The translations under genes were made by a program, and so were the position numbers. DNA of 64,000 nucleotides. It comes from Thermalbibacter longus. Its GTDB lineage: Bacteria > Chloroflexota > Chloroflexia > Thermomicrobiales > Thermomicrobiaceae. Location of the stretch: NCBI RefSeq assembly GCF_023806485.1, contig NZ_JAMSLR010000002.1, positions 1 to 64,000 of the forward strand, read 5' to 3'. Shown piece after piece: positions 1,021-62,140 of the stretch (position 1 is its first letter; the number at the start of each line of letters is the position of its first letter). The notes under the pieces are model-generated. The model had not been told where the DNA came from and made no database searches. It was given only the letters and a program-made list of their open reading frames with translations.

Positions 1021-1060
1021 TCTCTCCAGTCCTTCTCCAGTGACACGATACCGTTCTTGA

Positions 1061-3108: not shown

Positions 3109-3474
3109 TCAGTCCTCGCCTTGGTCCCTCCACCGATCCATCGATTCCAGCCAATGGCGCTGGCGCTCCAGCGCGCGCAGCCGGTAGGGGACCAGCTCCG
3201 GAGCGTTGTCGAGCGCGCGTTGGAGGTTCGGGTCAGCCGTGCCGGTCAGCGTCTTCACATCGAGGCAGCGGTTCGTGTACGCCATGTCCGCGGCCGGCGT
3301 GAGCCGCGCCCGGCTGGCCTCGACCCGCTCCAGGCACTCCACCGCCAGCCGCACCACGCGCTCTTCCTCGCTCTCGACCAGGCGAGGCGCGATCGCCACG
3401 AAGGTTGCGACCAGCGCCAGCGCAGTTACGCCAGTGGCTACAGCCGTGGCTGTGATCATGCTGGCACGCCTCAT
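3109..3474 (-). CDS. Small membrane-anchored protein of unknown function
   Basis: This 121-residue protein has one N-terminal hydrophobic segment (about residues 7-30) and a soluble, Arg/Glu-rich helical remainder with two cysteines (Cys48 and Cys70). A clear AGAGGAGC ribosome site precedes the ATG. No family was recognised. It stands between an M48 protease gene on the same strand (3554, ending upstream) and the gene-free stretch. The 79-base gap to the protease gene allows cotranscription. Confidence 0.55.
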   Translation of the reverse strand: MRRASMITATAVATGVTALALVATFVAIAPRLVESEEERVVRLAVECLERVEASRARLTPAADMAYTNRCLDVKTLTGTADPNLQRALDNAPELVPYRLRALERQRHWLESMDRWRDQGED

Positions 3475-3553: not shown

Positions 3554-5248
3554 TCAGGCTGCCTGTCCCGGCCCCGGGTGACCGGCCGAGCGCTCCGCCT
3601 GCGCCGCCTGGAGCACGGCCGGGAGGTCGAACAGGACGAACGCGGTCAGCGCGGTGATCGCGCCCTCGAGCCGGTCGGCGTCCCGCAGCAGCCGGCTGGC
3701 CGGCTCGAGCGGGCCGGGGATGTCGCGGGTCTCAGCGATCACCGGCCGCCCGCCGAGCGTCAGCGTCCCTCTCCGGACTGGTCGCAACGAGGCCCGCACC
3801 CTGGCCCACCCCTCGTCGAATGGCACGCCGAGCGCCTCCAGCCGTGCCGCCAGCGGCGGGTGGCTGTCGACCGGGTGGGGCTGCGTCTGGGCGGCGAGCC
3901 AGGACGGCGCCGACTGGCTGCGTGCCAGATCCGCGGCCTCGGAGGTGGTGATCGCGCTCATCCGGGGCACCGGCTCGTTCATGGTCTCGGCGATCTCGGC
4001 TAGCTCGGAGAAGTCCTCGCCGCTCTCGGTGGCAACCTCCCATCGGCGCCGGGCCGCGAGATACTGCGTGTTCCACTGGCGGAGGCGGTGCAGGTAGGCG
4101 GGCCAGACGTATCCGGCCAGGTGGACCTTGATCAGCGCCGTCGCGATCGCCAGCGAACTTGCCACCCGAGCCGCCGTGCGGTCGGCCACCAGCTCGCGCT
4201 GCCGCGAGCGCTCGGCCGCGGCCACCTCGAAGGCGGCGACCGCATAGCCGAGCACCGGGATGGCCGGTAGCACTGCGATCGAGCGCGGGTTCTCTTCGAG
4301 GCTGCCGACCGCGTTGCCGAGCGCCTGCAGCGCCCCGCGGTAGAGCGGGTAGAAGCGGCGACTGAAGGCGGTGTCTTCACCGTGGAAGTGGGCGAACTCG
4401 TGGGCCAGCACCGCGCGGAGCTCGTCGCGCTCCAGCACCGCGAGCAGGGGCAGCGAGAGGTAGAGCAGGCGGCCGTGGCTCTGCCCGCCGGGGTAGCTCA
4501 CCGGCACCTCGGTCACGTAGCAGTTCGGCTCGGCCCCGAGCAGGATCGTGCGCGGTGGCTCGGTGCCCACCACGCGCGCCACCTCGCGGGCCAGCTCCCA
4601 GAGCCCCGGCTGGTCTTCGGGGGTGACCGCCACCGCCAGTTCGGTCACCTTCACCGGCTGGAAGACCTGGAGCACCCCAGCTCCGACGGCCAGCGTGGCG
4701 ACCAGGCCGGAGAGGCCGATCCCGGCCAGGATGAAGGGGTGAAACCGCTCGATGAAGACGACTTCGAGCAGGTAGAGCACCACTACCAGGTTCGCGCTCT
4801 GGATCAGGAGCAACCCGACCAGCCCGAGCGCGACCAGTACCAAGGAGAGCCGGAAGAGGCCGAGCAGCTTCCGGTGGTCGCGTCGCGCCGCGCCCCCGGC
4901 CCAGGCCACGAACGCCAGCAGGGCTACCCCGCCGGCGCCAGTGAGCACGCTGCCGAGCTGGCTCAGCTCAGCCAGGTTGAAGTGCGAGCAGAAGTCTTCG
5001 CTGCTCACCTCGGGCTGGTCGCAGAACGATTCCAGCCGGACGAGCTCCCACTCCTCCGCCGTCAGCCGGCCGTACTCGGCCTCCACGGCGTCCCGCCAGG
5101 CCCCGTTCATCCGCGCCTCGACGATCCAGGCTCCGACCCAGAGCGCGACCGGGAGGATCAGCACGATGACCGCTGCTCCCAGCCACGGCAGCCCGGCCTC
5201 GCTCTCCCCCTGCGCCCCACCCTTCGACGACGGTGTCCCCCCAGCCAT
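3554..5248 (-). CDS. M48-family membrane zinc metalloprotease
   Basis: The 564-residue protein has an N-terminal membrane helix (about 22-43), then further helices at about 97-117, 130-150, 152-172 and 175-195, and a cytoplasmic or periplasmic catalytic domain. The zinc site is visible: HEFAH with His283, Glu284 and His287, and a downstream Glu352 in a Glu-Leu-Val-Ala-Asp segment typical of M48 (HtpX/Ste24-like). The Asp-Pro-His-Pro-like substrate-side segment appears as His-Pro-Val-Asp-Ser-His-Pro-Pro, also characteristic of the family. The protein is longer than HtpX (about 290 residues) because of the N-terminal multi-helix part. A role in membrane protein quality control is inferred from the family. 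Confidence 0.85.
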   Translation of the reverse strand: MAGGTPSSKGGAQGESEAGLPWLGAAVIVLILPVALWVGAWIVEARMNGAWRDAVEAEYGRLTAEEWELVRLESFCDQPEVSSEDFCSHFNLAELSQLGSVLTGAGGVALLAFVAWAGGAARRDHRKLLGLFRLSLVLVALGLVGLLLIQSANLVVVLYLLEVVFIERFHPFILAGIGLSGLVATLAVGAGVLQVFQPVKVTELAVAVTPEDQPGLWELAREVARVVGTEPPRTILLGAEPNCYVTEVPVSYPGGQSHGRLLYLSLPLLAVLERDELRAVLAHEFAHFHGEDTAFSRRFYPLYRGALQALGNAVGSLEENPRSIAVLPAIPVLGYAVAAFEVAAAERSRQRELVADRTAARVASSLAIATALIKVHLAGYVWPAYLHRLRQWNTQYLAARRRWEVATESGEDFSELAEIAETMNEPVPRMSAITTSEAADLARSQSAPSWLAAQTQPHPVDSHPPLAARLEALGVPFDEGWARVRASLRPVRRGTLTLGGRPVIAETRDIPGPLEPASRLLRDADRLEGAITALTAFVLFDLPAVLQAAQAERSAGHPGPGQAA

Positions 5249-40520: not shown

Positions 40521-42362
40521 TTACTCCTCTAGGTACCAGTCGGCTGCGCTGTACAGTGTCCCGCGTGGATTGAACCAGATCGACTTAATGCCTTTCAGGC
40601 GGGTGCTCCACGCATCCGCTGAGGCCGAGCGGTAGAGCGGCAGCGCCGGCCGCTCCCGAGCGAAGATCTCGACCGCCCGCTGGTAGGCCTGGCGGCGAAC
40701 CTCCGGGTCGAGCGTCGAGTTCGCCTCTTCGACCGCGGCGTCGAACTCGGCGTTGCGCCAGTGACAGTACGTGAAGCCGCCTGGGTTCTGCTCGCTCGGG
40801 ATGGACGCGCTAGTGAAGATAGCGGCCCAGTCGGCAGGATCGACCTCGTAGCCGTCGCGGCTCATCACGATGTCGTAGTTGCCGCGCGCCAGCAGGCCGC
40901 CCTCCTGCCAGCTCCCGAAGATCGTGTTCGACGGGACATTCTCGATGCGCAGCTCGATCCCGACGTCCTTGCAGTTCTGCTGCACGAGCTGCTGGTAGAG
41001 CTCGCGCGTCTGGTCGCCAGCGATCGTCTGGTAGCGCAGGCTCGCCCGCACGCCGTTCTTGACTCGAATGCCGTCGCCACCCGGCACCCAGCCAGCCGCA
41101 TCCAGAATCTGCTTGGCCTTCTCCGGGTCGTACGGGGTCGGCGGTCGATCCACGGCAGCCCAGCCCGCGTAGATAAATGCGCCGGTGAGAGATCCGAATC
41201 CGCCAAGCACCTGGTCGATGATCGCCTGCCGGTCGATCGCATAGTCGATCGCCTCGCGGATAGCCGGGTCTCCGAGTACCGGGTGAGGCTTAGTGGGATC
41301 GCCGTTGTCAGAGAGATTGAACCAGAGCCACTCGACGCTGGCTCCTCCCTCGAGCAGCTCCACGTGAACCGGCTTGCCCTCCTGCTCGGCGGTCACCAGC
41401 GTGGGGAGGTCTCCCGTCACGATGAAGTAGACATAGTCGAACTCGCCATTGACGAACGAGGCGATGGCCGCTTCCTTCTCAGGCGTGACCTTGATCGTAA
41501 TGCCATCGAGATACGGCTTCTCGGGGTCGCGGTAATTGGGATTGCGCTCCAGCGTGATCTGGTCTCCGGTCTTCCAGTCGACGAACACGAAGGGGCCGGT
41601 GCCGAGCGGCAAGCGAGCGAGCGGGTGCTCCTGGGTGATCGCCGTCGACTCGAACTTGTGCTTGGGCAGGACCTGCTGGAAGAGATCCAGATAGCCCGGG
41701 TTGATCTCGGACATCTTCACCTCGACCGTCAATGGATCGATGGCCCGGGCGGACTCGATCTTCTCCCAGGCCGCGCCGACTTGCGGCGTGCTCTCTGGGT
41801 TCTGGTACACCTCGACGGTGAAGACGATGTCCTCTGCGGTGAAGGGCTGCCCGTCGCTCCAGGTGATGCCGTCTCTGAGCTTGTAGGTGATGGTGAGGAA
41901 GTCCTCGGAGATGCCCCCGTTCTCCAGGGTCGGGATCTCGGCCGCCAGCACCGGCTGGTACTCCCCGTTGCGGTCGGGGACGAAGAGCGGCTCGACGGCC
42001 AGCACTGAGAGGAACGAGCCGGACTGGCCGTTGAAGAAATCGTTCATCTGCCCCGGCTCCTGGATCAGGGCGATGACGGCGCGCCCGCCACGCTTCGGCG
42101 TACCGGCAGCTCCCGGTGTCGCCGTCGAGGCAGCCACGGGTGTGTCGACGCCTCCGCCTGTCGGCGTCGAGCGCGCGCCGGCAGCGGTCGGCTGGGGTGT
42201 CTCACCACCTTCGCCACCACCGCAAGCCGCCAGCAGCGTGCTGACGATCGTCCACGACAGACCGATCGCCGCGCCTCGGCGGATGACCTCCCGGCGGGTC
42301 AACCGACCCGCCAGCACGTCACGGATAAGCTGTTGTGCGGCCCGGAACTGGCGATCTTCCAT
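40521..42362 (-). CDS. Extracellular solute-binding protein, family 5 (peptide/nickel type)
   Basis: The 613-residue lipoprotein starts at ATG 42362 after GAGGAGG. The first 45 residues carry RREVIRRGAAIG (Tat-like) followed by a hydrophobic stretch and lipobox Leu-Ala-Ala-Cys, then a Thr/Pro/Gly-rich linker. The SBP_bac_5 body has ITYKLRDGITWSDGQPFTAEDIVFT and LRYQTIAGDQTRELYQQLVQQNCKDVGIEL. It binds peptides or similar and delivers them to the two permeases encoded downstream. Confidence 0.9.
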   Translation of the reverse strand: MEDRQFRAAQQLIRDVLAGRLTRREVIRRGAAIGLSWTIVSTLLAACGGGEGGETPQPTAAGARSTPTGGGVDTPVAASTATPGAAGTPKRGGRAVIALIQEPGQMNDFFNGQSGSFLSVLAVEPLFVPDRNGEYQPVLAAEIPTLENGGISEDFLTITYKLRDGITWSDGQPFTAEDIVFTVEVYQNPESTPQVGAAWEKIESARAIDPLTVEVKMSEINPGYLDLFQQVLPKHKFESTAITQEHPLARLPLGTGPFVFVDWKTGDQITLERNPNYRDPEKPYLDGITIKVTPEKEAAIASFVNGEFDYVYFIVTGDLPTLVTAEQEGKPVHVELLEGGASVEWLWFNLSDNGDPTKPHPVLGDPAIREAIDYAIDRQAIIDQVLGGFGSLTGAFIYAGWAAVDRPPTPYDPEKAKQILDAAGWVPGGDGIRVKNGVRASLRYQTIAGDQTRELYQQLVQQNCKDVGIELRIENVPSNTIFGSWQEGGLLARGNYDIVMSRDGYEVDPADWAAIFTSASIPSEQNPGGFTYCHWRNAEFDAAVEEANSTLDPEVRRQAYQRAVEIFARERPALPLYRSASADAWSTRLKGIKSIWFNPRGTLYSAADWYLEE

Positions 42363-42512
42363 ACCTCGTCCTCCTCTCGTTGCCCTCAGGCCGCCGGCTC
42401 GCTCGAGAGCGCAGGGAGCGCCTGACGCCGCTCCCGATGCCCCACGGGGGGCAAGCGGGACATCCGTCCCCCTCGCAGTCGTCACCTCGATCCGCGCGGA
42501 CGTCGCCAACGC

Positions 42513-50264: not shown

Positions 50265-51041
50265 TTGGAACAGGCGGTCCGCCGGGGCACGTCGATGCAG
50301 CCGCTCGAAGACGTGCGCGAAGAGGTACAACGGATCCTGGCCGCGGCCGAAGAGCGAGACATCATCCTGCGCGCGCTCGGCGGCGTGGCTGTCTATTTCC
50401 ACTGTCCGAGCGCCCGGCACCGCGCACTCCAGCGGACGTATCGCGACGCTGACCTCGCTGGCCTCTCGGCCCAGAAGCGGGCGATCGAGGCGCTCTTCGC
50501 CGATCTCGGCTATCTCGCCGATCGCGAGTTCAACGCGCTCCACGGCCACCAGCGCCTCTACTTCTGGGATCCGGTCAACCAGCGGCAGATCGATGTGTTC
50601 CTCGATATGCTGCGCATGAGCCACACGCTCGACCTGCGCGACCGGCTGACTCTGGATCGCCTCACCGTCTCGCTCGCCGACCTGCTGCTGTCGAAGCTGC
50701 AGATTTGGGAGATCAACGAGAAGGATCTAACCGATATCGTCGCTCTCGTCCACGACCACCCCTTCGGCCGGGGGAACGACGAGACGATCGATCTCGACCG
50801 GCTTCTCGACGTGCTGACGTCGGACTGGGGCTGGTACCGCACGGCGAGGGAGAACGTCGAGCGCACGAAAGCGTTCCTCGCTCACCACGATCTCGCGGCA
50901 GAGTTCGACGTGGTGGAGCGCCTAGACCAGTTCTGGCGCCAGGTCGAAGCGGCTCCCAAGAGCCGCGCCTGGAAGATGCGTGCCGTGATCGGCGAGCGCA
51001 AGCGCTGGTACGAGCTGCCGGAAGAGGTTCGGCGCGACTGA
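50265..51041 (+). CDS. Nucleotidyltransferase-like protein
   Basis: This 258-residue protein starts at TTG 50265 after GAGGAGGTGCTCG; ATG 50295 is an alternative without a site. The N-terminal part has LGGVAVYFHC followed by RTYRDADLAGL, the Gly-Gly plus Asp-x-Asp pattern of minimal nucleotidyltransferases, with a further QRQIDVFLDML strand. The second half is helical, with SLADLLLSKLQIWEINEKDLTDIVALVHDHP, as in AbiEii/MNT-type proteins. No adjacent HTH antitoxin partner is seen. Function in nucleic-acid or protein nucleotidylation is inferred. Confidence 0.6.
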   Translation: MEQAVRRGTSMQPLEDVREEVQRILAAAEERDIILRALGGVAVYFHCPSARHRALQRTYRDADLAGLSAQKRAIEALFADLGYLADREFNALHGHQRLYFWDPVNQRQIDVFLDMLRMSHTLDLRDRLTLDRLTVSLADLLLSKLQIWEINEKDLTDIVALVHDHPFGRGNDETIDLDRLLDVLTSDWGWYRTARENVERTKAFLAHHDLAAEFDVVERLDQFWRQVEAAPKSRAWKMRAVIGERKRWYELPEEVRRD

Positions 51042-51094
51042 CTGCTGTGCAGCGGGTCGAGAAGCCGGTGGGGTAGAAAAGGGGGCGGCGAGGA

Positions 51095-52081
51095 GTGGTG
51101 CGACTTTTCCGACGGAACGAGCCAGCCAGCAGGTCAACGCGACTGGCACTCTACTACACGAGCGACGTCCACGGCTCCGAGCGCTGCTTCCTCAAATTCC
51201 TCAACGCGGCGAAGTTCTACGGGGTCGACACGCTGGTCTTGGGCGGCGACCTCACCGGCAAGGTGCTGGTGCCGATCGTCGAGATCGATGGCCGTTGGGA
51301 GATGACCTTCCTGGGTCGGCACGAAGTGCTGGCCACGCCGGCGGATGTCGCCGAGGCGGAGAAGCGGATCCGCTTCAACGGCTTCTACCCGTACCGGTGC
51401 GACCAGCGGGAGCTAGCCCGCATGGAGGCCGATCCCCAGTACGCAGTCGAGGTTTTCCGGCGCACGATGCGGGAAGCGATCGAGCGCTGGGTACGGCTAG
51501 CTGAGGAGCGGCTGCGCGGCTCGGGCGTGAGCTGCTTCATCATGCCGGGGAACGACGACGAGTTCGACATCGACGAGGCGCTGGCACACAGTGACGTCAT
51601 CGTCAACCCGGATGGGCGCGTCGTCCAGCTCGATGGCTACCAGCTCCTGAGCCTGAGCTGGGCCAACCCGACCCCCTGGAACAGCCCGCGCGAGCTGCCG
51701 GAGGAGGAGCTGGCGGCTCGGATCGAGCGCCTCGCTCGCGAGCTCGATCCCGGTGTGCCGGCCATCTTCAACCTCCACTGTCCGCCCTTCAACTCGACCC
51801 TCGACAGCGCTCCCCAGCTCAGGGAGGACTTGTCGGTCGTGATGGTCGGTGGCCAGCCGAACATGGTGCCGGTGGGTAGCCGAGCCGTGCGCGCGGCGAT
51901 CGAGCGCTACCAGCCAGTACTCAGCCTTCACGGCCACATCCACGAGTCGCGCGGCGCGGTGCGGATCGGCCGGACGCTCTGCATCAACCCCGGCAGCGCC
52001 TACGGCGAGGGCGTGCTGCACGGCGCGCTCGTCGTGCTGGAGGGTGACCGGGTAGCGAGCTACCAGCTCGTGAGTGGTTGA
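51095..52081 (+). CDS. Metallophosphoesterase
   Basis: The 328-residue protein has the calcineurin-like metal motifs: YTSDVHGSERC (Asp-x-His), LVLGGDLTG (Gly-Gly-Asp), MPGNDDEFD (Gly-Asn-Asp), FNLHCPP (His), and SLHGHIHESRG (Gly-His-x-His). A long insert between the second and third motifs (about 55-145) is unusual. It starts at GTG 51095. The cyclase gene follows after nine bases, so the two are probably cotranscribed. The substrate is unknown. Confidence 0.85.
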   Translation: MVRLFRRNEPASRSTRLALYYTSDVHGSERCFLKFLNAAKFYGVDTLVLGGDLTGKVLVPIVEIDGRWEMTFLGRHEVLATPADVAEAEKRIRFNGFYPYRCDQRELARMEADPQYAVEVFRRTMREAIERWVRLAEERLRGSGVSCFIMPGNDDEFDIDEALAHSDVIVNPDGRVVQLDGYQLLSLSWANPTPWNSPRELPEEELAARIERLARELDPGVPAIFNLHCPPFNSTLDSAPQLREDLSVVMVGGQPNMVPVGSRAVRAAIERYQPVLSLHGHIHESRGAVRIGRTLCINPGSAYGEGVLHGALVVLEGDRVASYQLVSG

Positions 52082-52090
52082 GAGTAACAG

Positions 52091-52741
52091 ATGGATGTCT
52101 ACGACCTCTCGCACCGAATCGAGAACGGCATGCCGTTCTTCCCCGGCGACCCGGAGCCACGCGTGATCCCCGGGCGTGGAGCGCCGCCCTGGCAGGTGAG
52201 TGCGCTAGAGCTGGGCACGCACACTGGCACCCACATCGACGCGCCCAGCCATCGCTTCCCGGAAGGCCGCGCCATCGCCGACTTCCCGCCAGCGCACTTC
52301 GTCCGCCCGGGCCTGGTCATCCCGGTGGCTGGCCTGGCAGAGGACGAGCCGGTCGAGCCAGAGCGGCTGGAACCGTTCCTCGCGCGCGTCCGAGCCGGTG
52401 ACGCGGTCGTCTTCGCGACCGGGTGGGAGCGCTACTGGGGCCAGCCCCGCTACTTTTGCCATCCTTACCTGAGCGAATCCGTCGCTGGGCTCCTCGTCGA
52501 AGCCGGCGTCGCGATCGTCGGGATCGACGCTCTCAACGTCGACTCGACCGTGCGGGGGACGTCCGGAGTGCACGAGCGGCTGCTCAGCGCGGAGGTGCTG
52601 ATCGTCGAGAACCTCCGCGGGCTGGATCAACTTGTCCCTGGACGGCGCTATGTCTTCAGCTTCCTACCTCTGCCGGTGCGCGGGGGCGACGGCTCGCCGG
52701 TGCGCGCAGTGGCCTGGGAGAGCGACACGCGGTTTACCTGA
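52091..52741 (+). CDS. Cyclase/arylformamidase-family hydrolase
   Basis: The 216-residue metal hydrolase has the diagnostic His-x-Gly-Thr-His-x-Asp-Ala-Pro-x-His motif (GTHTGTHIDAPSHRF, about residues 42-56), preceded by DLSHRIENGMPFFPGDP. The C-terminal half has DALNVDSTVRGTSGVHERLL with further metal or catalytic residues. Kynurenine formamidase is the best-known member; isatin hydrolase and others share the fold. It lies nine bases after the phosphoesterase gene. Confidence 0.85.
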   Translation: MDVYDLSHRIENGMPFFPGDPEPRVIPGRGAPPWQVSALELGTHTGTHIDAPSHRFPEGRAIADFPPAHFVRPGLVIPVAGLAEDEPVEPERLEPFLARVRAGDAVVFATGWERYWGQPRYFCHPYLSESVAGLLVEAGVAIVGIDALNVDSTVRGTSGVHERLLSAEVLIVENLRGLDQLVPGRRYVFSFLPLPVRGGDGSPVRAVAWESDTRFT

Positions 52742-52813
52742 GCGCGTGAGTTGAGAGGGTTGGCAGGCGAGCGCTCGGAACGAGTGCTCGCCGCTGAGTG
52801 AGGAGGGGAGTCG

Positions 52814-53179
52814 ATGGAGCAGGCACAGCAGCGAGGTGTGCCGGCCGGTGCTCCGCGAGTGTTCACTCGGGCCGCGACTGGCCTGGTGCGCGAGGCGGGG
52901 CTACTCGACGCGCTGATCTACAACGTCAATTTCATCAGCATCGGGCTGATGGTTGCCCTGATGTTGCTCTATATGTCCTCCTACGGCGGGGTGAGCGTGC
53001 CGCTCTCGCTGATCTTCTGCGCCGCGCTCGCGCTGCCCACCGCGGCGACCTACGGCATGCTGGCGGCTACGATGCCGCGGAGCGGCGGCGACTACGTGTA
53101 CGTCAGCCGCGTGCTCGGCCCGGCCTTCGGCATGATGAGCAACTGGAATACGACCGGTACAGGTTCTCTCGTCGGCTGA
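52814..53179 (+). pseudogene. N-terminal fragment of an APC-family amino acid permease, cut by an insertion
   Basis: From ATG 52814 (GAGGAGGGGAGTCG upstream) the frame encodes a cytoplasmic stretch and three hydrophobic helices of an APC permease: ALIYNVNFISIGLMVALMLLYMS, SLIFCAALALPTAATYGMLAA and the GDYVYVSRVLGPAFGMM segment. It ends at 53179 in unrelated sequence. The C-terminal half is found at 61243-61911 in the same orientation, so one gene has been split. About 190 residues of a normal ~540-residue permease are absent, implying loss of the middle. Confidence 0.75.
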
Positions 53180-53209
53180 GTCATATGCTGAGTGATATGA
53201 TGACTCAGC
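53175..53209. repeat. Inverted repeat at the left junction
   Basis: GCTGAGTCAT (53175-53184) is the exact inverse of ATGACTCAGC (53200-53209), with a further GCTGAGTGATATGA copy between. It overlaps the stop of the truncated permease, at the point where homology to APC permeases ends. Confidence 0.5.
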
Positions 53210-53341
53210 ACAGCGACAAGAGTCTGCGCCTCAACCATGCTGACATTCCAGTTTGTGGCTGTTATGCCCGTCTCACTCACCGTCCAGCCGCCTGTCCCGG
53301 CTACAGCGACGTGGGATACCCTACGCGGATGCCTGACCTGT

Positions 53342-53617
53342 CTAGGGCGTCCCTGGCTGAGCATTGGCCGTGCTCTTTGGGACGGCTGCGATTGCTTCAT
53401 GCTGGGGTACGGGTACACCGGCTGGTGTGGCCTGCTGCTCTCCTCCCTGTGCGGTAACAACACCGGGATCGTCGGTGAACCGTGAGACAGTGGCGAACAC
53501 CAGCGTACTGGCTAGAAGCCCGATGAGGATCGTCGCGGCTACTGTTCGCGTTACGTTCCGTCCCTTTCCTAATGCCGCATCGGACGAGATCGTAGGGAGT
53601 GTGCTCTCTTGGGCCAC
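53342..53617 (-). CDS. Small membrane-anchored protein
   Basis: This 91-residue protein starts at GTG 53617 after AGAGAAGG. A short polar start is followed by one helix (TVAATILIGLLASTLVFATV) and a Pro/Ala/Gln-rich, disordered tail. No family is recognised. It may be the N-terminus of a truncated gene, as it lies close to the insertion's left end. Confidence 0.4.
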   Translation of the reverse strand: MAQESTLPTISSDAALGKGRNVTRTVAATILIGLLASTLVFATVSRFTDDPGVVTAQGGEQQATPAGVPVPQHEAIAAVPKSTANAQPGTP

Positions 53618-53652
53618 ATGAAACCTTCTCTCCGCTCGCACTCTCTCCGACA

Positions 53653-53689
53653 CCGAGCGACAGGCCCTTGCGGCAGGCCTGTCGCTCGG
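53653..53689. repeat. 14-bp perfect hairpin
   Basis: CCGAGCGACAGGCC (53653-53666) pairs with 53676-53689 across a 9-base loop. It lies between the start of the small membrane gene and the IS630 relic. It could be a terminator of an older unit or part of the transposon end. Confidence 0.5.
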
Positions 53690-53702
53690 CCGACACACTT
53701 AC

Positions 53703-54120
53703 TGTCCACCGCAGCCAGATCCTGCTCGCCAGCGCCCGCGGCAAGACCGTACCATCGATTGCCCATCACTTGAGCGACAACGAGCGGACCGCCCTCCATG
53801 CGTGCAGTCAGCAGCGGATCGCGGCGCTGAGGCAGGGTTCCTCACACCCCCGCACCCTCCGGGCCGCCTTCACGCCCGAGACGGTGGCCACACGCGGCAA
53901 GATGGCCTTGCTGCGGGTTCCCCTGGTACGGCGGCTAGGTGGTGCGCGGCTGGATGCGGGAGTGCAACCTTCACGTCAAACAGACCGGCGAGGGGGTGCG
54001 GATCGTGGTCAGCTCGCTGCCGCGCAAGAGCCCTTGGCTTAATTAAGCCGATTGTGCCGCTCTGGGTCCACACTAAGCGCCATATCATCGCGCTGGATCC
54101 ACCCTGCCGGCCCGCGAGCT
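53703..54120 (+). pseudogene. Degraded IS630-family transposase
   Basis: Plus-strand frames show HRSQILLASARGKTVPSIAHHL (the N-terminal HTH of IS630 transposases), then RIAALRQGSSHPRTLRAAFTPE, and after a gap a C-terminal RIVVSSLPRKSPWLN followed in another frame by PIVPLWVHTKRHI. An internal deletion removes the catalytic DDE core, and several frameshifts and a TAA after LeuAsn interrupt the rest. Confidence 0.6.
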
Positions 54121-54290
54121 GGCCCGGCGTGTTTAGGGGTCCTGAGATGCCCGTATCATGACCACCTTCCGATTCCCGAACAGGTCCCTCGATCGTGCAG
54201 TTAAGCCATGACCCTAGAGCTTTCCTGAGGACCGAATCGGGACGTATGCCGTAGCATGCTTCCAGGTGCCGCACTGGCAGCTTGCTGGCG

Positions 54291-54770
54291 TCAGAGCGGC
54301 TCGGACTCGGCTGTCGATCCCGGGGCTGCCACCGCGTCGCGGGGCCAGGAGCGTTTAGCACGAAGCGCGAACCCCAGGGACATGATGGCCAGGATTAGGC
54401 ATCCTGGTCGTGCGGGCACCGGAAGACCATCGGCGCCTATCCCGAGTGGCAAGAAGACAGACCGCAGAGCGATGACTGCCTCGACGATCAGGTACAGCGG
54501 CCAGGCCAGGAAGCCAGCGAGCGACAGCCCAGCAAGGAGCAACCACCGGCGCCGGTCATCGCGCCCGAAGAGCAGCGGCCGGGCTCCCTGCGCCCCGAGC
54601 AGCGCGTACCCTGTTAACCAGCGTGCCAACCCAGCGGCATCGAGCACCGACTCGGGCACGAGCCACCTCGGCGGGTCGGCTGCGAACCAGCCGGCCCACC
54701 AGGAGAGCAATGCCGACCAGCCGAGCACAACTAGCCCGAGCACGCGACGAGCCACGGTGCTCCACTCCAC
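54291..54770 (-). CDS. Membrane protein, last gene of the ECF-linked run
   Basis: This 159-residue protein starts at GTG 54770 after AAGGAGGCGATCTC. Four hydrophobic segments (about 8-30, 46-62, 77-95, 98-112 and a further one near 121-140) alternate with short loops; Trp-rich periplasmic side (SWWAGWFAADPPRWLVP). No family is recognised. It follows the 54793 gene by 22 bases in what appears to be one transcript starting at 59531. Confidence 0.55.
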   Translation of the reverse strand: MEWSTVARRVLGLVVLGWSALLSWWAGWFAADPPRWLVPESVLDAAGLARWLTGYALLGAQGARPLLFGRDDRRRWLLLAGLSLAGFLAWPLYLIVEAVIALRSVFLPLGIGADGLPVPARPGCLILAIMSLGFALRAKRSWPRDAVAAPGSTAESEPL

Positions 54771-54792
54771 GAGATCGCCTCCTTGTCAACTC

Positions 54793-55284
54793 TTACTGCG
54801 CCGCCCGATCTCGCGCTGCCACTCGCCGCGAACCACCCCTGGCTGCGCCGAGGAGCACGAGGGCTGCGAGCCAGGGATAGAGCACGAGCAGGGCGTTGAA
54901 CACGAGTGGCAGCGAGCTCATCCGCGCCCAGGCGAAGGCCGGTCGGCCCTCGGTAACGGCCAGGTGGAGGGTCGCTACGCTGCCCCACCAAACCATACCG
55001 AGTCCGGTACCGACCCCGGCAACGAGTGCAGCCAGCCCCCATACCCAGGTCCGGCGTGGACAGGAGAGCATCGTCCCCGCAGCCACGCCGTTCGCCAGCC
55101 CGAGCGCCAGCGCGCCCATTGCCGCCCAGCTCAGCCGGGTGTCGCCGTGCACCTCGTCAGGATCGCGAAGCCGAACCCAGCCAAGAACATCGCGATCGCG
55201 GCCAGTCCCAGTCCTATCCCTCCCATCACCCGGCTGAGCCGGCAGTGCCAGGCGAACACCGCTGACCTCCACCACTTTCCGCAT
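54793..55284 (-). CDS. Membrane protein, probably frameshifted near its N-terminus
   Basis: The frame from ATG 55284 gives a 163-residue product: about 57 low-complexity residues and then three helices (MGALALGLANGVAAG, TWVWGLAALVAGVGTGLGMVWWG, LPLVFNALLVLYPWLAALVLLG). In the alternative frame, positions about 55220-55140 encode GIGLGLAAIAMFLAGFGFAIL, a convincing membrane helix that is then closed by TGA. The two frames together make a four-helix protein, so a one-base lesion near 55140-55155 is likely, by mutation or base-call error. Confidence 0.45.
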   Translation of the reverse strand: MRKVVEVSGVRLALPAQPGDGRDRTGTGRDRDVLGWVRLRDPDEVHGDTRLSWAAMGALALGLANGVAAGTMLSCPRRTWVWGLAALVAGVGTGLGMVWWGSVATLHLAVTEGRPAFAWARMSSLPLVFNALLVLYPWLAALVLLGAARGGSRRVAARDRAAQ

Positions 55285-55327
55285 CACGCCAGCCCTTGAC
55301 GGGCGGCAGGTCCAGCGCAAGGGTCGC

Positions 55328-56350
55328 TCACCGCTGTGGCCCTGCTGCGGTCCGCAGCGGACCACGTCGCCGTTCCCACCATCCTGCCAGCAGCCCGATC
55401 AGGACGAGCCCTGCCCCGGCGGCGAGCGCCCACCACTGCCACCTTACGGCCCTCGTCCCCTCCGCCGGCCCAACTGTGACCCGAAGTTCGAGTCGTTCGC
55501 CGCCACCGCCGCGCGCAGCCGCCTCCACCGCGACCGGAAATGTCCCCGCCTTGAGCAGGTGTAGGTGGAATGCACCAGTAGCCATGTGCTCGACGACCGG
55601 TGCCTGCCATGCCGGCGCACCGGCTACGGCGAATGCGCCAGTCGGATCGTCGACGCGCACCACCGCGTCGCGTGCCGGTTCGCTGCCGGTATTGCGCACC
55701 CGGAAGCGCAGTGTCACATCCTCGCGCACAGCGAGCGGGCCACGCGGCAGGCCCAGCTCGAGGCTGAGCTGCGGCGGCCCGCGGCGGGCTACCTGAATCC
55801 CGGAGTCGTCCTCCACGACAAGCCGGGACACCCGTACCCCTGGTGTCATATCGATCCCGAGCTGCAAAGTGTTCTCGCCGAGGCGAGGCCATTGGAACGG
55901 CACGGCGTTCCGCACCACCAGCTCCAACGCCGTCCCGAGCGCCGTCCCCACTCGCACCCCGTCGTAGAGGTCGAGCGTATTCCAGGTGAGGAACACGTTT
56001 CCGTCGTCTGCTCGATGGACGCGCACCCGAACCAGCGTTGCGCTCCACTCGTTGGCCATGTCCCAGAGCTGCAGCTCGCCCGGTGCTGTGTCCGGTGCCA
56101 GGACGATCCGATAGTGAAGCCAGACGACGATGGTTCGTCCGGATCCTTGACTCGCGTCCGCCAGCGTGTAGCGGGCGAGGGTATAGCGCCCCGGTCGTGG
56201 GTCGCGCCACTCCAGCCGGGTTGCGCCGAGCTCGCGCAGCGACCAGTAACCGTAGCCAGCGATCCGTCTCGGCTCCTCAGATGCAGCGACGGAAGATCCA
56301 AGGCCGGTCACCATCAGGAGCAGTACGGCAGTTAGTCGTATCGCCCGCAC
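55328..56350 (-). CDS. Type I membrane protein with CARDB-like domain
   Basis: The 340-residue protein starts at GTG 56350 after GGGA; residues 1-22 form a signal peptide ending near Ser-Val-Ala-Ala. The first ~200 residues are a beta-rich secreted domain (WLHYRIVLAPDTAPGELQLWD, LDLYDGVRVGTALGTALEL). A CARDB/DUF11-like Ig module follows (VREDVTLRFRVRNTGSEPARDAVVRVDDPTGAF), and one C-terminal helix (WWALAAGAGLVLIGLLAGWW) with a basic tail anchors it. Its position after the tandem secreted/anchored modules suggests a shared outer-surface complex. Confidence 0.6.
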   Translation of the reverse strand: MRAIRLTAVLLLMVTGLGSSVAASEEPRRIAGYGYWSLRELGATRLEWRDPRPGRYTLARYTLADASQGSGRTIVVWLHYRIVLAPDTAPGELQLWDMANEWSATLVRVRVHRADDGNVFLTWNTLDLYDGVRVGTALGTALELVVRNAVPFQWPRLGENTLQLGIDMTPGVRVSRLVVEDDSGIQVARRGPPQLSLELGLPRGPLAVREDVTLRFRVRNTGSEPARDAVVRVDDPTGAFAVAGAPAWQAPVVEHMATGAFHLHLLKAGTFPVAVEAAARGGGGERLELRVTVGPAEGTRAVRWQWWALAAGAGLVLIGLLAGWWERRRGPLRTAAGPQR

Positions 56351-56480
56351 GCCTGTACTCCCGGGCTGCTGTCCTTGAATCCCAGTCACCTGCCATAGCG
56401 GCGCCAGTCCCACCGCCCTGTGCTCACCCCCTGTGGACCAGAGCGGAAAAGCTGGGCTCAAACAAGCAGTCTATCGTGCC

Positions 56481-57146
56481 TTACGGGAGAGTAACTTGCG
56501 ACGCATAGCCGTTGTTCAGATAGTAATCGTTGCCATCCTGGCGGGTAGTCGGCCAGCTATCGTTGTTCGCCATCCAGGTAACATCATCGACGACGTGGTA
56601 GCCCTTGTCGCGAAGCTTCCCAACGAAATACTCCTCGGCTGTCTCGCTCCAGCCATATTTTGGAGAGAATGACGATTCATCTTTGTCGATATGGGTGGTA
56701 GCGACGACGTAGCGGCTCCACCTAGTGTTGTAGAAGTAGTCGGTCGACGGTGGCGCGTAGATTCGGATATGGTGAAAGCTATCGCTATCCCCTGACCACT
56801 GGTGCTTTTCCCCCTCGTCCGAATCCCAGAACCATCCGGCTCCATCGTTGCCACGGAAGTTCATTGAAGAGGCAAGGTGGTTGGTTCTCCCAACTGCATC
56901 CTTCGCCTTGTTGACGTCCGCGTTCGGGTAGAAGATCATGTTCACGGGCCAGTCGACCCGGTCCGTGCACGCCGGTTGTCCCGAGCCTCCGCATTGCGTC
57001 GTCTCATTGTCCCAGTTATAGAACGAGTCATCGCCGAAGGTGAGCACCTGGTAGGTCGTCGTTGAGTTAGCCAGCGCCGACCCCGCGCCGAGTGCTATCA
57101 GGATCAACGCGAGCAGGATAGCAGCGCGTGACACCAGTCGTAGCAT
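56481..57146 (-). CDS. Secreted protein, module copy 2 (paralogue of 58035 gene)
   Basis: The 221-residue protein starts at ATG 57146 after GAGGTGGGAGCA. The signal peptide ends at about Ser-Ala-Leu-Ala. The mature part shares order and key residues with the 58035 product: FYNWDN, VDWPVNMIF, MxFRGxD, FWDSD, HHIRIYA, THIDK and YGWSETAEE. The HH(I/L)R(I/L) and THIDK-type segments with WPVN recall the LssY C-terminal domain, but this likeness is only by eye. Two Cys pairs (CGGSGQPAC) may form a disulfide absent from the paralogue. Confidence 0.6.
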   Translation of the reverse strand: MLRLVSRAAILLALILIALGAGSALANSTTTYQVLTFGDDSFYNWDNETTQCGGSGQPACTDRVDWPVNMIFYPNADVNKAKDAVGRTNHLASSMNFRGNDGAGWFWDSDEGEKHQWSGDSDSFHHIRIYAPPSTDYFYNTRWSRYVVATTHIDKDESSFSPKYGWSETAEEYFVGKLRDKGYHVVDDVTWMANNDSWPTTRQDGNDYYLNNGYASQVTLP

Positions 57147-57176
57147 TGCTCCCACCTCGCGTTCGTCATTCCTCGA

Positions 57177-58010
57177 TTACTCACCGTGGTAGAGGACAGC
57201 CCGGTTCGCATCGAAGTCGACGAGCACGACAATACTCGTTACTGGCCGATCAGGAAGGTCCCGGCTCGCGCGCGCCGCTGTGGGAAGCGGCCACTGCCAT
57301 CCCCCCTCAAAATCGCGGGTGACAATCGGGACCTCGCCCCCGAGCGTGACCGGCCCCTCCGTCTTCACCCACACGAGCGCCCCGACGAGCGTGCCGTCCG
57401 GTGCCTGGATCCGGCTTACACTCTCGATCCGGTAGCTGGAACCGGCCAGCACCGCTGCCAGCCACGGCTCCTTGAGAGCGATTTCGATGGCTCGCGAGCG
57501 CAGCGGCTCCTTCAACTCGCTCGGATCCTCCTCCCGCGCCACCGTGGTGTACGGGCCGGTCGGCTCCACCTGCACGACCTGGCCACTGGCCAGATCGACC
57601 CACACCACGACGAGATCCACGTTGTATGCCGTATAAGTGTGCCGCTCCGTCGTCGGCGGCCAGCGTACCCGCCAGTCGACCGCCAGCAGCCACTCGCCCC
57701 GTAGCGTCTGCGGCTCGGCGAAGTCGACCGCGACGTACCCGCCGACCAGCTCACCGGTCGGCCCGGTCACCGGACCGATCGAGATTGCGTACTCCTCCGG
57801 GCTGCGCTCGGCGAGCACTGCCTGCACGGTCGGGTGAGCCAGCGCCACCGCGCGTACCCGCGTGGCCTGCTCCGCGGTGAGCTGCGGGCCAGGCGCCGGC
57901 ACTTGCTCCTGCACCTGCGTCCGCGCCCCAGCCAGGTATCCCAGCCCGAACGGCACGGCCAGCGCCGCGACGAGGAGGGCGCCCCCGAGCCATCGCCAAC
58001 TCCATCGCAT
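57177..58010 (-). CDS. Signal-anchored protein, module copy 2
   Basis: The 277-residue protein has an N-terminal helix (ALLVAALAVPFGLGYLAGA) following MRWSWRW and an exported alpha/beta domain. Its repeats LAHPTVQAVLAERS... and ...KEPWLAAVLAGSSY suggest two related half-domains (each with 'xxPxVxAVLAG' then a sheet with VWV), as in PepSY-like folds. The N-terminal 22 codons and ribosome site (CGGAGGATGCC) are nearly identical to those of the paralogue at 58716. It precedes the secreted-protein gene by 30 bases. Confidence 0.6.
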   Translation of the reverse strand: MRWSWRWLGGALLVAALAVPFGLGYLAGARTQVQEQVPAPGPQLTAEQATRVRAVALAHPTVQAVLAERSPEEYAISIGPVTGPTGELVGGYVAVDFAEPQTLRGEWLLAVDWRVRWPPTTERHTYTAYNVDLVVVWVDLASGQVVQVEPTGPYTTVAREEDPSELKEPLRSRAIEIALKEPWLAAVLAGSSYRIESVSRIQAPDGTLVGALVWVKTEGPVTLGGEVPIVTRDFEGGWQWPLPTAARASRDLPDRPVTSIVVLVDFDANRAVLYHGE

Positions 58011-58025
58011 GGCATCCTCCGTTCA
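57943..58025. repeat. 83-bp direct repeat, copy A
   Basis: This covers the ribosome site and the first 22 codons of the 57177-58010 gene. It matches 59464-59546 with a single mismatch (A57999 versus G59520), while the rest of the two genes differs widely. Confidence 0.85.
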
Positions 58026-58034
58026 TCGGTCCGG

Positions 58035-58688
58035 CTATGGTTCATCTGAAATGTAGACGACCGTTGCGAACCCGTTCGACAGGTAATAGCGCGTCTCACC
58101 ATGCTCAGTCACATACCCGCGGTTATCCGTGTTCACCAGACTGATCCAGTCCTCATCGACGCGATAATCCTTACCCCGCAACAGGGCAGCAAACCACTCC
58201 TCAGCAGTCTCCGACCATCCATACTCCGGGCTGGTGCACTCGTTCTTGTCGATATGGGTGGTTCCTAAAACATACCGTCCCCACTCTTGGTTGTACAGAT
58301 ATTTATTCGATGGGTGAGCGTACAGTCGGATGTGGTGATACCAGTCTCCACAGCTACCATGCTTGCGACCATTGTCAGAGTCCCAGAAATAGTTGATCCC
58401 ATCATCGCTCCCGCGGAAATACATATTGCTAGTGAGGAATGACGAACCGCCTATGGCATTCTTTACAGAATCCTTGGTATGATTACTGCCTATTCGGAAG
58501 ATCATGGTTACTGGCCAGTCGACGTTGTTGCCACTCGCTGTCTGTGATCGGTTATCCCAATTGTAGAAGCGATCTTCGCGAGCCGCGATCAGTGCCCAGG
58601 AACTGGTGGTACCTGCCAAGACCGGAGTTAGCACCCCGACCAGCACGAGCCCGGCGATCACTCCCGCAACTGTGATCAGGCGCAGCAT
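58035..58688 (-). CDS. Secreted protein, module copy 1
   Basis: This 217-residue protein starts at ATG 58688 after GGAGGTGGAT. Residues 1-26 form a signal peptide (ending TPVLAG). The mature domain repeats the pattern of the 56481 product with FYNWDN, VDWPVTMIF, MYFRGSD, FWDSDNG, YHHIRLYAHPSN, THIDKNE and YGWSETAEEWF, and shows about 40% identity by eye. The His-His-Ile-Arg and Thr-His-Ile-Asp-Lys groups are conserved candidates for a metal or catalytic site. No family is established. Confidence 0.6.
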   Translation of the reverse strand: MLRLITVAGVIAGLVLVGVLTPVLAGTTSSWALIAAREDRFYNWDNRSQTASGNNVDWPVTMIFRIGSNHTKDSVKNAIGGSSFLTSNMYFRGSDDGINYFWDSDNGRKHGSCGDWYHHIRLYAHPSNKYLYNQEWGRYVLGTTHIDKNECTSPEYGWSETAEEWFAALLRGKDYRVDEDWISLVNTDNRGYVTEHGETRYYLSNGFATVVYISDEP

Positions 58689-58715
58689 ATCCACCTCCAC
58701 AGCTCAACTTCGCCG

Positions 58716-59531
58716 TCATCGGTTCCCCGGCATCGTCGCCACCACCGACCAGGGCTCCACGCTGACATCGATCAGTACCGCCAGCTCTCTGACGCCGACC
58801 TCCTCTCCTTCAGTCACGACGACCGCCGGTGGCCACTGATGTGCTGGACGAGGCTCGACTAGGACGAGCCAGCTCCCTCTCAGGACAACCGGTCGGTCGA
58901 AGACAAAGCTCACCCCGATGCCCACAGGCACATCACGGGCGTCCCGAATCCACCACGCTTCCCGCACCTCGTAACCGTGTCCGTCCAGGAGCGTCGCCAC
59001 CCGAGGATCGCTGCACGCCACCTCAATGGCCCGCTCCCGCTCCGTGCCGAGCACCGGTTCGTGATTAGGACGCTCTGGATCGGTACGAAGCAGTGCGCCG
59101 CCTGGGAACATCGCCGCCAGGTCGCCGCTTTGGGTGTCCACGAGGAGATGCAGTCGCGTCACCCCATGCGCCGTGTACGTGAGCGGCCGTCCCACGAACC
59201 ACTCGCGGCCGTCTTCTCGGCGCAGCACGGGCTCAAGCCACTCTGTCGTGAAGCTCCCCGGCTCCTCCAGCTCGATCGTGACGTTCACGATATGCCCTTG
59301 ACCGGGCGTGTTGAGCGGCGCCCCCACCGTCACGGTGTATGGTTTCCCTGTCAGCAGTGCTGCAACGCGTGGATGCGCCACAGCCAGTCTGGCCGCCGCT
59401 TCGCTCAGCGGCGCTGGTGTCGGCGTAGAGACGCTCTCGCTGCGCGCTGCTACGAGGTACCCGAGCCCGAACGGCACGGCCAGCGCCGCGACGAGGAGGG
59501 CGCCCCCGAGCCATCGCCAGCTCCATCGCAT
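58716..59531 (-). CDS. Signal-anchored protein, module copy 1, first gene of the run
   Basis: The 271-residue protein is a paralogue of the 57177 product: same MRWSWRWLGGALLVAALAVP start and similar two-half architecture (AHPRVAALLTGKPY in half one, CSDPRVATLLDGHGY in half two), but otherwise low similarity. ATG 59531 follows CGGAGGATGCC. It is the first gene of the minus-strand run and lies back to back with the ECF sigma gene (198 bases between), so it is the likeliest ECF target. Confidence 0.6.
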   Translation of the reverse strand: MRWSWRWLGGALLVAALAVPFGLGYLVAARSESVSTPTPAPLSEAAARLAVAHPRVAALLTGKPYTVTVGAPLNTPGQGHIVNVTIELEEPGSFTTEWLEPVLRREDGREWFVGRPLTYTAHGVTRLHLLVDTQSGDLAAMFPGGALLRTDPERPNHEPVLGTERERAIEVACSDPRVATLLDGHGYEVREAWWIRDARDVPVGIGVSFVFDRPVVLRGSWLVLVEPRPAHQWPPAVVVTEGEEVGVRELAVLIDVSVEPWSVVATMPGNR

Positions 59532-59546
59532 GGCATCCTCCGTTCA
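59464..59546. repeat. 83-bp direct repeat, copy B
   Basis: Matches 57943-58025 at 82 of 83 positions. It covers the ribosome site and the N-terminal helix of the 58716-59531 gene. Confidence 0.85.
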
Positions 59547-59729
59547 GCTGTACGCTACTGCCCTACTGCGGGATGCGTAGCGCACTCTCTTTCTATTTCG
59601 CTTAGATGCAGCGTGAAGCTCATTTCGGACATCGTAGCCTCCCGATAGGAGGAGCCACAGGGTGTCGCGCGCGGAATGTCCAAACCCGCTTTGCAGCGGC
59701 ATCCTAGAACATAGGAGGCAGGTCACAGG

Positions 59730-60332
59730 ATGAATCCACCACCTAGACACGGGCTAGACCATGACGCAATCCATAGCGAACGGAGACTGAGTACCGCGAG
59801 TCGGAGTCGTGATGCGGACACGTTCAATGAATTCGTCGACCAATACTATGCGCCGCTCCGTCGCTATCTCCTGCGCCTAACCGGCGATCCCGAGCTGGCG
59901 GCTGATCTCACCCAGGAGGCTTTCCTGAAAGCGTACAGCCGCATCGAGCAACTGGCTGACGACGAGGCCTTCCGTCCGTGGCTGTACAGGATCGCCCTGA
60001 ATCTGGCTCGAATGGAGTTCCGACGACGGCAGCGACGACGGGTGCTGTCATTGGAGTGGCTGATTGAATCCGTCCGTGGTATCAGCCACTGGCTTGCGCG
60101 CCCAGATGACATGGTAACCGTGCCAACACGAGACCTAGTGCAGCAAGTCCTCGATGAGTTATCGCCGACTTTACGCGAGGCGCTCCTGTTACATCGCTTG
60201 GCTGGTTTTACGAGTGAAGAGATTGCCCGGCTGCTCAATATTTCTCCTGAGGCAGCGCGGAAGCGTGTTACGCGTGCTGTGCAGCGATTTCAGGCACTTT
60301 ATCATGAGCGTGCGGGAGCAAGAGAGGAGTAG
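59730..60332 (+). CDS. ECF-type RNA polymerase sigma factor
   Basis: The 200-residue protein has region 2 (FNEFVDQYYAPLRRYLLRLTGDPELAADLTQEAFLKAYSRI, PWLYRIALNLARMEFRRRQRRR) and region 4 (LDELSPTLREALLLHRLAGFTSEEIARLLNISPEAARKRVTRAVQRF). No extra C-terminal domain. The start at ATG 59730 follows AGGAGGCAGG. The anti-sigma gene follows five bases after the stop. It is inside the insertion, divergent from the secreted/anchored gene run, which it probably activates. Confidence 0.92.
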   Translation: MNPPPRHGLDHDAIHSERRLSTASRSRDADTFNEFVDQYYAPLRRYLLRLTGDPELAADLTQEAFLKAYSRIEQLADDEAFRPWLYRIALNLARMEFRRRQRRRVLSLEWLIESVRGISHWLARPDDMVTVPTRDLVQQVLDELSPTLREALLLHRLAGFTSEEIARLLNISPEAARKRVTRAVQRFQALYHERAGAREE

Positions 60333-60337
60333 GATAC

Positions 60338-61156
60338 ATGCGCGAATGCGATGTCGCCGCAGAGGAACTCCTCGCTTATCTCGATGGCTGCCTAGACGGA
60401 GAGCGGGAGGCGTATGTTGCCCATCATGTGAAGGTCTGTCCGGTCTGTCAAATACGACAAGCGGAGCTGGAAGAAACCAAGCAACTGCTCAAAGTCAGTA
60501 CTCCGCTGCCCAACGATGAGATAGAGCGAAGCCAGCTCAAAGCTGAGATCCTTCGTAATCCCCATCCACCGCTGCCTCGCCGCCGTCGGCGTCCACTGCT
60601 CATGGTCGTGCTGGCTGTGCTGCTCAGCCTGATCCTGCTCTGGCCGGCTGACTCATCCGCCAACCTTCAGCTTGGCCGTGTTGTGCGTGGCGTGGTTGCG
60701 CAGGTAGAAAAGTCTCTTCTCGGCCGGCGGGAGCCACCCGGTGACCGCATCAGTGGCGTGCTCTTCAGGGATTCACAAGCCTTCGTGCCTCCAGCTGAGC
60801 TTCCTCTCGGGCTTAGACTGAGCGATCGTGCCACACCAGGGCTGAGGCGAGTAGAATCGCACTATCGCAGTGAGAGTGGAGTGGAGATTCTCGTAGTTCA
60901 AGGCCCTGCGGATCAGGGCCTTGCGCTAGGGTGGCGGGATGTCGAGCTTGTGTACGTTGGAGACACAGAGGTACTGTGGTTGAAGGATCCCCGGCGAGGC
61001 AATGTGGCTGGGATGGTGTGGGAGCGGCATGGCATACTGTTCGAACTCCTGGTTCTCAATGCGCCACAAGGCAATGAGGGAGGACTGCCGCTAGAGGAGA
61101 CCCTCCTCATCGTGCGGCACATCATTGCCGCTCACGATGCTGCGTCGAGCGAGTAG
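60338..61156 (+). CDS. Anti-sigma factor with zinc finger and DUF4367-like outer domain
   Basis: The 272-residue protein has a cytoplasmic N-terminal zinc-binding anti-sigma domain (LLAYLDGCLDGEREAYVAHHVKVCPVC, with His-x-x-x-Cys-x-x-Cys), a basic stop-transfer segment PRRRRRP and one helix (LLMVVLAVLLSLILLW, about residues 86-104). The outer domain (about 115-272) ends LLIVRHII and resembles DUF4367-type sensor domains. It would hold the sigma factor until an envelope signal releases it. Confidence 0.85.
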   Translation: MRECDVAAEELLAYLDGCLDGEREAYVAHHVKVCPVCQIRQAELEETKQLLKVSTPLPNDEIERSQLKAEILRNPHPPLPRRRRRPLLMVVLAVLLSLILLWPADSSANLQLGRVVRGVVAQVEKSLLGRREPPGDRISGVLFRDSQAFVPPAELPLGLRLSDRATPGLRRVESHYRSESGVEILVVQGPADQGLALGWRDVELVYVGDTEVLWLKDPRRGNVAGMVWERHGILFELLVLNAPQGNEGGLPLEETLLIVRHIIAAHDAASSE

Positions 61157-61242
61157 GGAGATGATAACGTTGTCGCTCACCAGGCGTCAGCTTATCACGA
61201 TAATTGCGGGTGTTACGACACTGTTCTTCACCCGCCCTGCCA

Positions 61243-61911
61243 ATGGCTCCACCGATGCCCCGGTTCCATGAGCTCGTGGCGATCGGCAGTGGCAACCTGC
61301 TCCTGGCGTTCCTGATCGGCTTCGGCTTCATCTTCTGGAGCTATGCCTGGCTGCCTGGGCAGATCCTGAACGCGTCGCGGAACCTCGTGGCCTACGCCGT
61401 CGACGGCCTCCTGCCGTCCTGGCTGGCCTACGTCAGCCCGCGCTTCCACACGCCAGTCGTGAGCCTGGTGCTCATGGGTGGGCTGTCGATCGTCGCCCTT
61501 GCGATCTACGTGTTTACTCCCTACTTCGCGACGCTAGTGGGCATCTTCGGCTTCCTATTGACCTTCATCGTGGTCTCGCTCAGCGCGGTACTTCTCCCGT
61601 ACCGGCGCCCGGAGGTCTTCCGGGGATCTCCGGTAGCCTGGCGGCTGGGCGGCCTGCCGGTAATGAGCTTGGTCGGCGCGCTCTCGCTCGTCGCCTGCGT
61701 GATCATGCAGTGGGCCTGCCTGAACGATCCGTACTCGGGGATCAGCCTAGATCCGAGCACACTCGAGCAGGGGATCCTCGGCTTCGGGATGTTCCTCCTA
61801 AATGTGGGGATTTTCCTGTCGGGGCTGGTCATCTACGCGCTCGCCCGCTGGTGGCGGCGCCGGCAGGGGATCGATCTCTCGCTCGCCTACCGTGAGATCC
61901 CGGTCGAGTGA
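61243..61911 (+). pseudogene. C-terminal fragment of the split APC-family permease
   Basis: From about 61243 the frame continues as PRFHELVAIGSGNLLLAFLIGFGFIFWSYAWLPGQILNASRNLVAYAVDGLLPSWLAYVS, the APC 'ASRNL' helix and loop, then four further hydrophobic helices and a basic tail ending at 61911. The frame is open and in the same orientation as the 52814 fragment. No ribosome site precedes it, so it is unlikely to be expressed as a working transporter. Confidence 0.75.
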
Positions 61912-62140
61912 GCGGCACGCCTTCAGAGAACCCAAAGCCTGGGGCTTCCTCGGAGGAGGAGACGGAATCCTCGTCGACCCTCCGTGCGGCTGAGCAGCGA
62001 TTGGCAGATTACTCCGATGACTCTGAGACCACATAGCGAGAACAGGGAGGATGACGCTGCTCTCATGCTCACCGCTTGGACTTCGTGCCTCGAAACCACT
62101 ATACTGCCTGCCGGCTGGTCTGGTCTGAGTTGTAGGGGAT

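Follow-up and report, generated by a model that had tools for sequence, protein, structure and literature searches.

A tandemly duplicated exported gene pair of Thermalbibacter longus with relatives in Bacteria and Archaea and a divergent ECF sigma factor

We analysed a 64,000-nucleotide stretch of Thermalbibacter longus DNA (contig NZ_JAMSLR010000002.1, positions 1 to 64,000; hereafter the window) and found a minus-strand run of seven genes built on two exported protein families, A and B, that recur as neighbours across two domains of life, together with a divergently transcribed pair encoding an ECF sigma factor and its membrane anti-sigma. We read this block as a surface cassette that moves horizontally and has A and B, as exported partner proteins, at its core, with A restraining B and with expression driven, in this genome, by the ECF sigma factor, a composite reading that we favour tentatively, at a little short of even chances.

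Organization of the gene run

The genes follow the order A1-B1-A2-B2-C-M1-D2 on the minus strand (59531 down to 54291), and the ECF pair (59730-61156) diverges from them across a 198-bp region between A1 and the sigma gene (59532-59729), an arrangement that an earlier sequence-only reading had described correctly (Table 1). Measured between the longest open reading frames, the minus-strand gaps are 15, 24, 21, 19, -38 and 22 bp, and the true start of C probably lies about 38 codons later, which would open a gap of about 130 bases. The tandem two-gene duplication proposed in that reading is also borne out. B1 and B2 are 47% identical, and the HH-I/L-R and T-H-I-D-K residues singled out earlier appear as HHIR and THIDK in both; A1 and A2 are 38% identical, with their first 26 residues the same and their genes 90% identical as DNA over the first 112 bp. 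A single hydrophobic segment is found in each A and B protein, at the N-terminus, and in the anti-sigma; C carries an additional one close to its C-terminus.

Table 1. Coordinates of the features of the block and of its insertion site in the window
Feature	Position	Strand	Basis or remark
Insertion, 8,101 bp	53157-61257	.	takes the place of 655 bp in an APC-type transporter gene that sister species have intact
D2, small membrane protein	54291-54770	-	common to other Thermomicrobiaceae cassettes
M1, small membrane protein	54793-55365	-	ORF
C, signal peptide, beta-rich ectodomain and C-terminal TM anchor	55328-56461	-	Hydrothermarchaeota homologue, tblastn 3e-28
B2, second B copy	56481-57155	-	
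A2, second A copy	57177-58010	-	predicted two alpha2-beta4 lobes
Near-identical 5' end of A2, 112 bp	57922-58033	-	partner 59443-59554 in A1; 90% DNA identity
B1, secreted protein with HHIR, THIDK, ETAEE	58035-58700	-	ORF, sequence comparison
A1, membrane-anchored two-lobed protein	58716-59531	-	ORF; N-terminal TM; A homologues in archaea and bacteria
Putative ECF-type promoter of A1, ATGTCC-N17-GCATC	59605-59632	-	one of 5 genome sites; 74 bp before A1 start
Putative ECF-type promoter of sigma gene, ATGTCC-N17-GCATC	59676-59703	+	element also precedes sigma in G038, G010
ECF sigma factor	59730-60332	+	Sigma70_r2 (PF04542) 2e-16; Sigma70_r4_2 (PF08281) 2e-14; TIGR02937 2e-25
Membrane anti-sigma, zf-HC2 and one TM (86-104)	60338-61156	+	PF13490 9e-5; NF052375 7e-7
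Tat-signal ORF start, cut by right insertion edge	61161-61257	+	MITLSLTRRQLITIIAGVTTLFFTRPANGST; translation; directly after anti-sigma

Only the sigma and anti-sigma genes of the block match curated families. A, B and C fit none of the families in Pfam, NCBIfam or PADLOC, consistent with the earlier statement that no known pathway accounts for the run, and a PADLOC search of the cassette for an anti-phage defence system gave no match. Two family labels from the sequence-only reading were not confirmed, as C has no Pfam CARDB match and the anti-sigma matches zf-HC2 only (9e-5, just past the cut-off) and not DUF4367. The small ORF at 53342-53698, with flat codon-position GC and no family, looks non-coding and is left uncounted, and an IS630-like reading of 53599-54042, made by eye, found no support in Pfam.

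Distribution of the A-B pair

In profile searches B turned up in 6 of the 61 close genomes, 7 of 400 genomes of the phylum Chloroflexota, 7 of 300 from the phylum of a Desulfurococcales archaeon and 1 of 23 from the Hydrothermarchaeota phylum. Among plasmids B was found on a single record, the T. roseum megaplasmid, and searches of phages and of viral contigs found none. A is the immediate upstream neighbour of B, in the same orientation, at 19 of 21 loci, a count that takes in both pairs of the window and one contig keeping only the 3' end of A; of the two non-conforming loci, one is a decayed chimaera and the other a fragment. Among bacteria the pair occurs in Thermomicrobiaceae and other Chloroflexota, and among heat-loving archaea in Hydrothermarchaeota and in the phylum of the Desulfurococcales archaeon; of the named relatives that carry the cassette, the closest is Thermomicrobium roseum DSM 5159, one of the Thermomicrobiaceae. 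This conservation across two domains of life indicates that the gene run is more than a chance assembly. A tree of B places the bacterial sequences apart from the archaeal ones with moderate support (78/92). A profile built from Thermomicrobiaceae A alone, a restriction that keeps the check from being circular, recovers the ORF beside archaeal B, with the better ones at 1e-9 to 2e-6 (2,192 ORFs) and an HH probability of 97.6 (E 2.6e-12).

Some loci carry C and small membrane proteins in addition to A and B. C is common to Thermomicrobiaceae, G032 and Hydrothermarchaeota, and M1 has no detected relative in other cassettes. The usual order in Thermomicrobium is A-B-D1-C-D2, which makes the A-B-A-B-C-M1-D2 order of the window unusual. 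Small membrane proteins of Hydrothermarchaeota and G014 were considered as D2 homologues and rejected, as the signal vanishes once they are omitted from the profile.

The surroundings of several cassettes have features of their own. G003 has two further genes next to its cassette (L023 8016-9765, minus strand), one for another small secreted protein, whose WFWD and NHMRFRQG pattern recalls B, and, ahead of it, one for an anchored protein of 378 aa that matches no family; the T. roseum cassette adjoins genes annotated as anti-phage, which encode phospholipase D-like and DUF1156 proteins (L025 10814-16528); and in G205 (L040 9844-11346) a C-like N-terminal part is apparently fused to a lobe resembling A.

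The insertion and the host genome

In the Thermomicrobiaceae-like host genome (3.63 Mb), the cassette, the ECF pair and some unassigned sequence together form an insert that replaces the middle of the transporter gene, leaving its two parts at 52814-53156 and 61258-61911; the gene is whole in G001, G002, G003 and G008. The sequence-only reading had missed this insertion. Comparison by blastn with intact loci (L081-L084) aligns window positions 50266-53154 with 404-3293 of G002, and 61258-61949 with 3949-4636. At third codon positions GC stands at 59-60 in the ECF genes, 63-71 in B, 73-83 in A, C and D2, and 83-87 in the genes on either side of the insert. The contrast between the ECF genes and A, C and D2 points to different origins, and the insert looks composite. 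The right edge cuts off a Tat-signal ORF that lies downstream of the anti-sigma gene, and G038 has a small secreted Cys-rich ORF at the equivalent place after its homologous anti-sigma.

We also observed a second, split copy of the cassette in the host genome (L020, G000:C15, and L091, G000:C80), beside a 1381-aa Big_1-domain protein. Overlaps between C15 and C80 suggest an assembly break around a repeated A gene. The idea that an old cassette had been lost from the host genome at C80 was dropped, because contig C15 carries the missing part and the case looks like an assembly split around repeats.

The ECF pair and its promoter elements

The divergent pair has the marks of the ECF sigma and membrane anti-sigma class, namely sigma regions 2 and 4 in a protein of about 200 aa, an adjacent anti-sigma with a zinc-binding domain and one TM helix, and a conserved element upstream of the sigma gene. 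In the order of its genes and in its domains it resembles other ECF sigma factors with zf-HC2 membrane anti-sigmas, and the element that it has upstream in common with its homologues suggests self-regulation; a divergent cassette carrying a copy of this element was found only in the host genome. ATGTCC-N17-GCATC is present on both strands of the divergent region, and a non-overlapping pair arises in 25 of 1,000 dinucleotide shuffles of this region. The more general pattern ATGTCC-N17-GC[AG]T[CA] precedes the sigma gene in three genomes. In G038 and G010 the element lies just upstream of sigma at the same spacing and agrees at 10 of 11 positions in each, and the three-way match across the sigma upstream regions of the window, G038 and G010 was equalled in 1 of 400 shuffles. 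Across the 3.63 Mb of the host genome ATGTCC-N17-GCRTM has 5 sites, two of them inside the 198 bp, and a control pattern has four. Based on these upstream sequences, the sigma factor very probably regulates itself. Since the element is shared by both sides of the divergent region and by the homologous sigma genes and is rare in the genome, sigma probably also drives the cassette in the host genome, as a lineage-specific local recruitment.

No ECF gene was found beside any other cassette inspected, the element is absent upstream of A in other cassettes, and the two best anti-sigma homologues (in G038 and G010) adjoin homologous sigma genes in genomes that lack B. Since the ECF pair and the element are both missing from the other cassettes inspected, ECF regulation is not general, and the ECF pair is a local addition outside any conserved system. 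The sequence-only reading had proposed an ECF switch for the gene run, of which the local control is retained as probable and the membership of the ECF pair in the system is not; the co-occurrence that it anticipated in other genomes fails, and the scattered phylogeny of the cassette, free of linkage to sigma, speaks against ECF pair and cassette as one unit. Elsewhere in the window, on the minus strand, a third ATGTCC-N17-GCATC site (42436-42463) is found some 70 bp ahead of the point where a gene resembling those for peptide-binding ABC lipoproteins (40521-42509, same strand) probably starts, and may be a chance occurrence or another sigma target.

The missing ECF genes beside the other cassettes inspected, and the ECF homologues without a cassette, would also be expected if the ECF pair were a hitchhiker on the inserted DNA and the cassette were transcribed independently, as would the differing third-position GC of the pair and the presence downstream of what would be its native third gene, the small Tat/secreted ORF cut by the insertion edge. 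Against this stands the sigma-type element on the A1 side, 74 bp before the start codon, for which the genome-wide count gives an expectation of about 1 in 10,000. We regard independent transcription as unlikely, if the best placed of the alternatives, and retain local control of the cassette by sigma.

Protein A

The predicted model of A (pLDDT 66.5) consists of two alpha2-beta4 lobes. Its predicted secondary structure fits this type of lobe. Its best structural matches in the PDB are the N2-N3 domains of amine oxidase (Z 7.4), followed by YpeB and an M4 protease propeptide (both Z 5.5), all with Z < 8, the range that the tool flags as middling. Foldseek with the same model returned nothing at E < 0.001, the comparison of A with the NCBIfam amine oxidase was marginal (E 0.011), none of 14 A proteins matched Pfam PepSY, and PDB sequence profiles gave no significant match for A or C. 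In the copper amine oxidase comparison, both lobes align with 1qak (152 residues, rmsd 12.6) and a single lobe with 4kfd (2.9 A over 73 residues), but A comprises only the lobes and a membrane anchor, without a catalytic domain.

The arrangement also resembles YpeB-SleB, a spore germination lytic enzyme with its PepSY-bearing partner, in its paired genes and in combining an anchored protein of tandem alpha-beta lobes with an exported partner, and the A model aligns with the C-terminal domain of YpeB (5boi) over 67 residues. It differs in that B is not recognised as SleB or as any Pfam family, in the lack of a spore context and in the missing PepSY match of A. In other proteins, lobes of this kind retain or inhibit exported enzymes. 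According to PMC13393411, YpeB interacts with SleB and possibly keeps it inactive. Double PepSY-like proteins of archaeal dark matter (cls.004634), proposed to be inhibitors of unidentified proteases (PMC6393860), have two YpeB/PepSY-like lobes as modelled for A, a likeness drawn from their description, but they are DPANN-specific and have no reported B partner.

Protein B and a model for the pair

Residues D49, D68, W110, G115, H129, R131, H155, D157 and E171 of B are kept in 14 of 14 sequences, and D111, D113 and K117 are nearly invariant, giving invariant HxR, HxD and E motifs together with a DxDxGxK loop. The conserved polar residues read as a candidate active or binding site. The predicted structure of B (pLDDT 37) is too low in confidence to use. 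A fucose lectin assignment was rejected, the top PDB-profile matches being weak (E 0.17-1.1), running through one HIRVYA stretch and taken as chance.

Adjacency, topology and fold class form the basis of a model in which A holds B. Judging from the promoter elements, an envelope signal would free sigma from the membrane anti-sigma, and the freed sigma would transcribe its own operon and the divergent A1-B1-A2-B2-C-M1-D2 run from the ATGTCC-N17-GCATC promoters. The topology predicts that the N-terminal helix would anchor A and leave two PepSY/amine-oxidase-N-like lobes outside, that B would be released by signal peptidase, and that C would be tethered via its C-terminal helix, with M1 and D2 within the membrane. 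A may then bind B and, at the surface, hold it in a folded, tethered or inactive state, by analogy to YpeB-SleB and to PepSY propeptides. B would be the acting part, a putative metal-dependent hydrolase or glycan binder working through HxR, HxD, E and DxDxGxK. Our best guess is that, on the cell surface, B is retained or controlled by A in the way that SleB may be by YpeB.

The pair could alternatively consist of a secreted bacteriocin-like antagonist, B, and a membrane-anchored immunity protein, A, with C and the small membrane proteins aiding export or display. Such a role is consistent with the patchy occurrence in two domains (7/400 in Chloroflexota, 7/300 in the Desulfurococcales phylum), with tandem duplication and divergence, and with four loci at which B is broken beside an intact A (a stop in G002, truncations in G003 and G008, and frameshifts in a Desulfurococcales MAG), though four cases are few and some are perhaps MAG assembly errors. 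B is, however, well conserved (about 30-55% identity across phyla) and not hypervariable, and shows no known toxin fold or PADLOC match; we consider the antagonist role improbable, somewhat more so than a hitchhiking ECF pair. Very unlikely is the suggestion that B is a distant LssY_C domain (PF14067), a family raised in the earlier reading, and the cassette an extracellular version of LssY-type membrane-lipid functions: H[VI]R, GxxTxD, DxxER and Gx[VI] stretches (an H-x-R, T-x-D and acidic-helix order) recur in the same order in both, and the best HMM-HMM alignment falls in that register, but the profile comparison is not significant, with 71 of 400 column-shuffled LssY_C profiles scoring equally well, none of 14 B proteins has a Pfam LssY_C match, and B is soluble and secreted without a PAP2/DedA partner.

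Implications

The pair may represent a mobile surface module from hot environments that spans two domains of life and has not been described before, in which an exported effector, B, is checked by the membrane-tethered two-lobed A, and which could serve cell antagonism or remodelling of the outer surface and be open to new regulators such as the ECF switch; we offer this broader picture as speculation, with well under even chances. A and B are uncharacterised exported families that are linked to each other in both Bacteria and Archaea and have no entry in Pfam, NCBIfam or PADLOC, and their linkage gives two uncharacterised proteins a testable partner hypothesis. The window offers a concrete putative inducible promoter for switching on and studying the cassette, and would illustrate how a mobile operon can be captured by an ECF regulator.
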